From Chthoniobacteraceae bacterium (GTDB lineage Bacteria > Verrucomicrobiota > Verrucomicrobiia > Chthoniobacterales > Chthoniobacteraceae): a DNA stretch of 64,000 bases. The notes under the pieces are model-generated. The model did no database searches. It worked only from the letters and a program-made list of their open reading frames with translations, and had not been told where the DNA came from. The stretch spans positions 62,001 to 126,000 of the forward strand of contig JAQGOL010000031.1 in the NCBI GenBank assembly GCA_028293625.1, given 5' to 3'. Of this stretch, positions 54,146-55,417 are shown one piece after another; position 1 is the first letter of the stretch; each line of letters opens with the position of its first letter. The position numbers and the translations under genes were made by a program.

Positions 54146-54218
54146 TGGGCCCGGTCGGATTTGAACCGACAACCAAGGGATTATGAGTCCCCTGCTCTAA
54201 CCATTGAGCTACAGGCCC
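54146..54218 (-). tRNA. tRNA-Ile2 (anticodon CAT, lysidine-type)
   Basis: A complete 73-base cloverleaf on the minus strand. The acceptor is GGGCCTG pairing with CGGGCCC, then discriminator A; the D-loop is AGCTCAATGGTTAGAGC; the anticodon arm is GGGACTCATAATCCC with CAT; and the T arm GGTTCAAATCC. No CCA is encoded. Anticodon CAT could be Met, but the GACTCATAATC arm is typical of tRNA-Ile2, whose C34 is changed to lysidine to read AUA. The gene lies 72 bases from the first recombinase-type repeat to its right. Confidence 0.93.
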
Positions 54219-54264
54219 GTTTACGTAGGAGAAATGGCTTTTTTCCCAGGTCCAATTTTGTGGC

Positions 54265-54350
54265 ATTGCTACCTCAAATTGCTACCTTTTAAAATCTGAT
54301 ATCCAAAACTCCACCCAAGCCTGCCCGGTTGCTACCCGAAAAGGTAGCAA
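54265..54350 (+). repeat. TTGCTACC direct repeats and inverted copy (possible recombinase binding sites)
   Basis: TTGCTACC occurs as direct copies at 54266-54273, 54279-54286 and 54329-54336, and in inverted form GGTAGCAA at 54343-54350, six bases after the third copy. The two first copies share a preceding A. The final direct/inverted pair forms a perfect 8-base dyad. They lie between a tRNA gene and an integrase gene and run into its first codons. This resembles arm-type sites of a tyrosine recombinase attachment region. Confidence 0.55.
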
Positions 54351-54745
54351 AAAAGTTGGAATCGTCCTACAAAAAGACATCTGTTCCCGGTCTCCGCATT
54401 TACATTACAACCGGCGGCTATCACGCCTATTTCAAGGCCGGAGGGAAACCGATCAAGGAAAGCTTGGAAACGACCGTCCGGAGCATTGCTGAATTGCGGC
54501 TCGAAGATTTAAAGGCCCAGCACCGCGGAACCAGGGGCTCTGGAGCAGGAAAATCTCCCTCCGTTATGACATTCGGCGATGCGTTGAAGACCTACGAATT
54601 TAATGAGTCGAGCAATGTTAAAACGAAGGTTAGTGCAAAAGATTACAGGGTGCAAATAATCAAGGCGTTCCTCGTTTCATGGCCGGGGCTGTACACCACA
54701 GACCTTCGAAAGGTTATCAATCGTTGCGAAAATCCCTGCACTTAA
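54329..54745 (+). pseudogene. tyrosine-recombinase (phage-type integrase), N-terminal fragment
   Basis: About 138 residues of the N-terminal part: PGLRIYITTGGYHAYFKAGG, then GKPIKESLETTVRSIAELRL and LEDLKAQHRG, typical of integrase arm-binding domains, followed by a core-binding helix segment (VMTFGDALKTYEFNESSNVK). The reading ends shortly before 54745 in residues with no family match. The catalytic Arg-His-Arg-Tyr domain (about 200 residues) is absent. Its end meets the 3' end of an IS630-family transposase remnant on the other strand, so the element probably broke it. TTG 54329 is the best start. Confidence 0.72.
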
Positions 54746-55317
54746 ATCGATGCGTAAATTGTACCCTCAAGTTTGAGAAATGAACGCACAAGGGATGTTT
54801 GCTTTTGGATGGATCGCATGATGCCAAGCACTCTGCGCCTCATCGTTCCGGCACTTTCCATAAATAGCTTAGCGAGGCGTGCCTTGGCATGCTCCCAGGC
54901 TTGCTCGTCAGGATTAAGCTCCGGCGCATACTTTGGCAGATGCCCAAGGTGGATGGCGTTATCGTTGTCTTGGGCGAACTGCTGGACCCGTTTGGAGTTG
55001 TGATAACTGGCGTTGTCCGCCATCACAATCACCGGTTTGCCCGCGTCTTGGTGGAGTTTTTTTAGAAACTCGATGAATTTCTCCGAGTTCATTCTTTCTT
55101 CGATGACCGAAAAGCGCATATCTCCGCGCGGGCTCACGGCTGAGATCAACTTTAAGCCAAAACGATCTCCGCTATCTTCAACAGCGGGAGTCTGGCCGAC
55201 GACTCCCCATATGGTCCCTCGATGGTGATCACTGCGCACCACGCTTTCGTCCACAAAGTAAATCTCGGCGCCGATCCGCTTGGCCAGGCGTTTTTTCTCT
55301 TTGACTCCAGGCAGATC
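54742..55317 (-). mobile_element. IS630-family transposase remnant (DDE domain)
   Basis: On the minus strand, from a TAG at 55318-55320 to TAA at 54742, the frame reads KRLAKRIGAEIYFVDESVVR with SDHHRGTIWGVVGQTPAV, then VIVMADNASYHNSKRVQQFA and LPKYAPELNPDEQAWEHAKA. These are the first Asp, second Asp and ELNPxE of an IS630-type DDE transposase. The N-terminal helix-turn-helix region is lost or frameshifted (an in-frame TAG precedes; weak matches continue in other frames to about 55400). No inverted terminal repeats could be placed, so the element limits are uncertain. It probably no longer moves. Confidence 0.8.
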
Positions 55318-55417
55318 CTAACAATCTGCGGCGAGAGTCTCGCCGCATTGCGCATCGGAAACTGCTCAAAATGGCCCGGATGCCTGCTCATGGGTAAATA
55401 GAGAAATCGTGGCGCAC

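Follow-up and report, generated by a model that had tools for sequence, protein, structure and literature searches.

A complete tRNA gene, four copies of an 8-base word, the beginning of an integrase, and transposase scrap lie side by side in a 64,000-nucleotide stretch of a Chthoniobacteraceae contig (hereafter the window), and the question raised by this locus is whether they are the remains of one integrated element and, if so, which part of the tRNA gene that element took over. An earlier note on this DNA had proposed the scar of an integrated element, and tRNA-Ile2, the TTGCTACC repeats, the broken integrase, and the IS630 scrap are all present where it had placed them. Here, we report that the window very probably holds the integrase-side end (attL) of a decayed island, which belongs to an anticodon-loop integrase family, sits on the 5' side of the tRNA, carries TTGCTACC words as candidate arm sites, and later had its integrase truncated.

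The tRNA-Ile2 locus of the window

The features of the locus are as follows (window coordinates).

54145-54218, minus strand: tRNA-Ile2 (CAT), found by ARAGORN, which prints 'Met'
54178-54187: inner edge of the attL/attR repeat, from the far-end comparison
54181-54187: anticodon loop TTATGAG, the putative crossover region
54219-54265: leader from the tRNA 5' end to the repeats; tRNA transcription must begin here or further right
54266-54286 (starts 54266 and 54279), plus strand: direct copies 1 and 2 of TTGCTACC, 13 bp start to start, putative arm-type sites
54329-54336, plus strand: third direct copy of TTGCTACC, from a word search
54343-54350, minus strand: inverted copy of TTGCTACC, from a word search
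54329-54733 (open frame to 54745), plus strand: N-terminal third of a tyrosine integrase, profile positions 2-132 of 378
54356-64000: start of the 44.4-kb island, which runs on beyond the window to G000:C35:160594
54742-55317, minus strand: remnant of an IS630-type DDE_3 transposase (Pfam DDE_3, E 1.8e-31)

The CAT tRNA, which we take to be tRNA-Ile2 because its sequence resembles that of E. coli tRNA-Ile2, is a complete gene at attL, and the integrase fragment is on its 5' side. No other tRNA was found in the window or in loci L034-L036, and the gene is judged from sequence to be the only tRNA-Ile2 found in the genome, the other CAT tRNA (on C31) appearing to be an elongator Met tRNA. The three direct and one inverted copies of TTGCTACC span 85 bp (54266-54350). 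Five copies occur in the window against 0.75 expected, a number reached in none of 100 shuffles, and four of the 48 copies in the whole 6.83-Mb assembly fall within the 85 bp by tRNA-Ile2. The reversed word occurs 267 times in the same assembly. Two TTGCTACC copies lie on G000:C18, with no family integrase and no tRNA in the 16.6 kb examined there. Where the integrase frame begins, the third and the inverted copies (54329-54350) make up an 8-bp dyad without mismatch, its halves separated by a 6-nt loop.

The rest of the integrase profile, including any C-terminal part beyond the IS, is absent from either strand of the 102 kb examined, and the fragment has no Pfam match. The catalytic domain that marks an active tyrosine-recombinase element is thus missing, as the earlier note had held, and after this loss self-excision of the island is not to be expected. 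The adjoining IS630 remnant retains the DDE_3 transposase domain that defines the type, in an open stretch of 191 codons including the DDE part (minus-strand frames), and its N-terminal part is not recognisable. There is no complete IS630 with terminal inverted repeats (the best inverted match is 8 bp without mismatch), and the remnant is the single match for its transposase in the genome at E<=0.001. Neither partner at the junction is therefore whole.

Far end and content of the island

A DNA search of the same genome found a second copy of the tRNA-Ile2 5' half, on the same contig and strand, 44.4 kb downstream at G000:C35:160594 (98594 in window numbering, i.e., outside the window). The copy begins at GGATTATGAG, at the anticodon loop and 5 nt ahead of the anticodon, and extends over the tRNA 5' half, the leader, and degenerate repeats into about 20 integrase-like codons; it is 76% identical to the tRNA end over 187 columns in direct orientation. 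Its tRNA fragment is 97.4% identical to the tRNA and stops 2 nt short of the tRNA 5' end. The tRNA 3' half is absent from the far end, and the whole tRNA locus was not found elsewhere in the genome; solely the 5' half recurs, at this far end. This direct partial copy, together with the like anatomy in relatives described below, bears out the proposed scar of an integrated element, and it corrects one expectation of the earlier note, namely that the tRNA 3' end would be repeated as attR: the repeated part is the 5' half instead.

The same layout agrees with what the Islander procedure looks for. A tDNA and a co-oriented displaced tDNA fragment (5', direct, 44.4 kb away) flank the island, and the 5' fragment lies upstream of the tDNA as the configuration filter of that procedure has it; the integrase gene inside or overlapping the island is represented here by a fragment only and is full-length in relatives.

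There are 39 open frames around the island (integrase and IS frames counted), and 27 cargo frames, one of them partial, were run against Pfam. Within the window the island encodes GrpE, a PLD-like enzyme, a CheB/CheR/PAS/histidine-kinase hybrid, and the start of a LysR-type regulator; the Pfam matches among the cargo include GrpE, the PLD-like enzyme, the CheB/CheR/histidine-kinase hybrid, a GH94 protein, PEP carboxykinase, a globin, and PocR/AraC regulators, and no phage or conjugation genes are among the 27 frames. An alternate F1F0 (N-type) ATPase operon lies within the island at G000:C35:140588-147424 (L035:14588-18846 and L036:471-2424), where the NCBIfam exception models TIGR03305, TIGR03306, TIGR03323, and TIGR03324 exceed their cut-offs. 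Two PocR/AraC regulators in the island are 43% identical to each other (L036:7061-8158, L034:1147-2229). A pair of glycine-rich proteins, 86% identical, stands one inside the island and one just past its far end (L036:2543-4573, L034:2931-4985); neither has a Pfam match, their C-terminal end resembles a PEP-CTERM signal, and the pair could be shared cargo of two related elements.

Spread and orientation of the integrase family

Relatives of the integrase fragment were found in 8 of 38 genomes, and a profile survey (E<=1e-20, at most 5 candidates scored per genome) found the family in 31 of 387 genomes sampled from the phylum, own genome included in both counts. Among 41 integrase loci, 25 start within 350 bp of the 5' end of an opposite-strand tRNA (divergent), a share that is no estimate for the phylum because the window integrase seeded both the search and the profile; 10 start beside the 3' end of a same-strand tRNA, and for six no tRNA lies that close. 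A contig end is near the start of L044. L080, a duplicate of the window locus, was dropped before this count and before the tree, the latter being also without L070 (nearly identical to L069) and rows scoring below 100 bits, and the near copies L069/L070 and L068/L071 were retained in the locus and repeat-spacing counts. The assignment of the host to the Verrucomicrobiota follows L033, the integrase relative that has a name. The tRNAs facing divergent integrases are CAT, Arg, Ser, Thr, Phe, Leu, Cys, and Val tRNAs, to which Lys and a further Arg were added later. Between the tRNA and the beginning of the integrase match lie 58-270 bp, and several relatives have the match in full length.

Same-strand rows group together in the tree built from 43 integrases, with three changes of orientation against 8.2 when shuffled, and none of 500 shuffles was as low. 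The window fragment, whose row fills 38% of the columns, joins L054 of G200 (95/82), which is also divergent. A single-protein scan of viral contigs gave four loci with integrase relatives. At one viral locus, L164 (IMGVR_UViG_3300000869_000028), the integrase relative stands divergent, about 100 bp from a tRNA-Leu.

Attachment fragments in related elements

If recombination takes place in the anticodon loop, the orientation of the element should decide which half of the tRNA is displaced. For 21 divergent loci (window included) 7.4 kb or more of downstream sequence was available, and 14 of them have a direct 5' tRNA fragment at the far end, 3.4-44.4 kb from the integrase end. Its inner edge lies 2-5 nt before the anticodon in all 14, and its outer edge is exactly the tRNA 5' terminus in 13, the window being 2 nt short; the identity to the tRNA is 100% in 11, 97.5% in G328 and G106, and 97.4% in the window. 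No far-end fragment was found in the other seven: G123 and G200a (99 kb each), G262b (59 kb), and G021, G025, G383, and G010 (7.5-9 kb). G200a, without a fragment over its 99 kb, is the nearest relative, and G010, the integrase of which is too broken for a profile match, has only an 18-bp match (E 0.011). Six divergent loci outside the 21, with 0.6-5.0 kb downstream, have no fragment on the same contig (G400, G005, L033, G301, G009, G048); L041, L043, L045, and L060 were outside the fragment search. The same-strand loci have 3' fragments in five of eight (G177, G060, G146, G265, G063), the inner edge in G063 lying 13 nt past the first anticodon base, and none in G126 (59 kb), G197a (19 kb), or G277 (about 4 kb). 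Divergent loci thus have 5' fragments and same-strand loci 3' fragments, and therefore orientation decides the displaced half, as anticodon-loop recombination predicts.

Second 5' tRNA fragments occur at L110-L111 (G176), L171 (G106), and L169-L170 (G328), and L140 (G421) has two 5' fragments. At L137 (G423), homology to the leader runs on at the far end, as in the window. Such second fragments and run-on homology suggest repeated insertion into one tRNA.

These relatives bear on another origin of the far copy, i.e., a plain segmental duplication of the tRNA/leader region with no attachment site at all, which would explain why the similarity extends past the tRNA into the leader and the integrase start, and also why the glycine-rich protein (86%) has one copy within the island and another just past the far end. 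We consider this highly improbable. The copy starts at the anticodon loop, as it does in 13 relatives, the duplicated protein is not beside the tRNA in the left copy, and the run-on in G423 together with the second fragments in G176, G106, and G328 fits tandem insertion.

Empty and occupied sites

In the genus to which G348 belongs, the search covered ten genomes, and 12 stretches were read. In G419, G424, and G425, tRNA-Ile2 lies 21-22 bp from tRNA-Thr with no element between them; the flank beyond tRNA-Thr is common with G348 only in G424. The site is occupied, with an integrase beside tRNA-Ile2, in G348, G301, and G423. About 0.9 kb separates the fragment from tRNA-Thr in G348. The far-end 5' fragment of G301 is on another contig and is followed by a similar spacer and tRNA-Thr, and therefore the original 5' half has stayed beside its former neighbour at the far end; the leader of the complete tRNA, at the integrase end of G301, is a different one, and the element presumably supplies the tRNA promoter. 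tRNA-Ile2 and tRNA-Thr are about 10.7 kb apart in G426, without a recognised integrase, and on separate stretches in G420, G421, and G422. In G426, two 3' tRNA-Ile2 fragments (L138, 18154-18267) follow the complete gene on its 3' side, close to a contig end, as if another element had entered the same tRNA from the other side.

The left flank in the window carries DnaJ-like and GyrI-like genes. Within the genus of the window no empty site was found: G001 has the DnaJ-like gene (46% identity) and no tRNA in the 20 kb examined, G002 and G003 have the tRNA without the neighbours seen in the window, and the compared stretches of G001-G003 are not syntenic with the window locus. The strains lacking the element for which the earlier note had asked thus exist in another genus, where related elements also occur and some sites are empty; none was found for this locus.

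The far end of the window island continues into a degenerate leader, repeats, and some 20 integrase-like codons; therefore an older element probably lies to the right. One could instead assume a single element and read this run-on as the original chromosomal leader of the tRNA, no older element ever having existed; only one far copy was found, and the contig ends about 3.7 kb on. We regard this as unlikely since degenerate arm words and integrase-like codons are unexpected in a chromosomal leader, and the empty sites in the other genus have a different spacer.

Repeat word pairs as candidate arm sites

When the 130 bp past the tRNA are searched for direct repeats, the best one is spaced at 13 bp in 15 of the 25 divergent loci. 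Please note that the binomial p of 8e-15 (one of 23 spacings) is too small a value because the leaders are related, near copies were kept, and the 13-bp repeat of L052 is not the shared word. The spacing is 12 or 13 bp in all 10 same-strand loci. Taken singly, the repeats exceed shuffles at p<0.05 in 10 of 25 divergent and 7 of 10 same-strand loci. The repeated word itself varies by element, examples being TTGCTACC, CTACGGTC, CTGATACTG, TGCATCC, GTAACCC, and GTGTCACCC.

The far ends were compared in 11 elements (G423, G328, and G106, found later, were not among them). In nine of the 11, a second occurrence of the word pair lies 84-153 bp in from the far end and scores above all 300 of 300 random windows of that element. 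For the window island, TCGCTACCCGTAGCTACC stands about 107-122 bp inside the far end, and in 102 kb the tRNA end and the far end are the only places with GCTACC pairs within 20 bp; the spacing of the attR words is 10 bp instead of 13. Local alignment of the two element ends gave p 0.27 for the window and p 0.07 for G285, i.e., shared words not above chance, and therefore the GCTACC evidence for the window alone is suggestive only. Since word pairs lie on both sides of the core in the relatives, we infer that the paired TTGCTACC words are probably arm-type integrase binding sites. The recombinase arm sites proposed by the earlier note have support in the relatives (nine of 11, pairs on both sides of the core), and the far end of the window itself is the weaker part of that proposal (p 0.27).

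Could the TTGCTACC words instead be operator or promoter parts of the divergent integrase/tRNA leader, unrelated to recombination? They lie in the integrase upstream region, and in part they form a dyad at the integrase start; arm and operator roles could also coincide in the same words. An exclusively regulatory role is nevertheless quite improbable in our judgment, as nine of 11 elements repeat the word pair 84-153 bp in from the far end, kilobases away from the integrase promoter, and the attR of the window island has GCTACC twice at a like distance. Word pairs at both ends fit arm-type integrase sites better than a mere operator. A sigma-70-like promoter with p<=0.1 was found in none of 25 leaders.

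Discussion

The tRNA anatomy, the fragments, and the empty sites together indicate that the element replaces the 5' half of the tRNA and its upstream region. The history that we propose for the window is as follows. Recombination at the anticodon loop would have placed the element 5' of the tRNA, joining the chromosomal 3' half to an element-borne 5' half and leader, and thus restoring the tRNA gene; by attachment-site logic, the 3' half of the present tRNA-Ile2 would be chromosomal and its 5' half, from the anticodon loop on, element-borne. The former 5' half and upstream region would thereby have come to lie 44.4 kb off, at the far end. An older relative in a more advanced state of decay probably occupied this tRNA already when the island inserted in front of it, and the integrase would have been truncated later, next to the IS630 remnant, which should leave the island unable to excise itself.

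Elements that target tRNA genes usually replace the 3' half, which leaves the promoter of the tRNA in place. The window island is a defective representative of its integrase family, among whose members the 5' form is common, i.e., the reverse of the usual bacterial arrangement. In lambda-type attP, repeated short arm words stand on both sides of the core; here, in contrast, the word pairs, as candidate arm sites, are mostly 12-13 bp apart and vary in sequence between elements.

According to the Islander report, 3760 of 3919 islands have a 3' fragment and 159 a 5' fragment (PMC4383910). The present island resembles the tRNA islands described there in having a tyrosine integrase, a whole tRNA at one end and a displaced fragment at the other, and an anticodon-centred site (class 'A'); unlike in that set, the 5' form is the commoner one in our sample, which was itself seeded from a 5'-type element (PMC4383910). 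Integration into the 5' half is described for pTN3-like elements in a review of archaeal tyrosine recombinases, which calls it seldom encountered in bacteria (PMC8371274), and the rebuilt tRNA of pTN3 is cut off from its original promoter (PMC5495485). The likeness to these pTN3-type integrases of Thermococcales is that the attachment site is the tRNA 5' half and that the rebuilt tRNA is separated from its original promoter; unlike there, where the integrase gene is disrupted on integration, the gene is whole beside the tRNA in intact relatives (PMC8371274, PMC5495485). A suicidal integrase of the pTN3 kind was rejected for the present family on the distance of the integrase match from the tRNA and its full length in several relatives. 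As in the tRNA-dependent lysogeny of mycobacteriophages, a tRNA gene of the host ends up needing the element for its function; there, a whole phage tRNA replaces a host tRNA that is not rebuilt, whereas here the tRNA is rebuilt at attL (PMC10865867). Lysogeny of that type was likewise rejected, the attL tRNA being complete and no replacement tRNA being present in the window or in L034-L036. By title or abstract opening, no paper on the present integrase family was among the best-ranked matches listed, which is no proof of absence from print.

One integrase family thus combines many 5' cases across the phylum sample with both orientations on one tree; with the varying arm words and the empty sites, this makes the upkeep of tRNA expression and the flip of orientation testable questions. 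It is possible, and we offer this tentatively, that this large integrase family, probably of the Verrucomicrobiota, takes over tRNA transcription and that tRNA-Ile2 here can no longer do without the leader of a dead element. If so, expression of the tRNA would rely on element DNA in which the arm sites also lie, so that integrase binding and tRNA output could be coupled, and this end of the island would be retained through the host's need for tRNA-Ile2.
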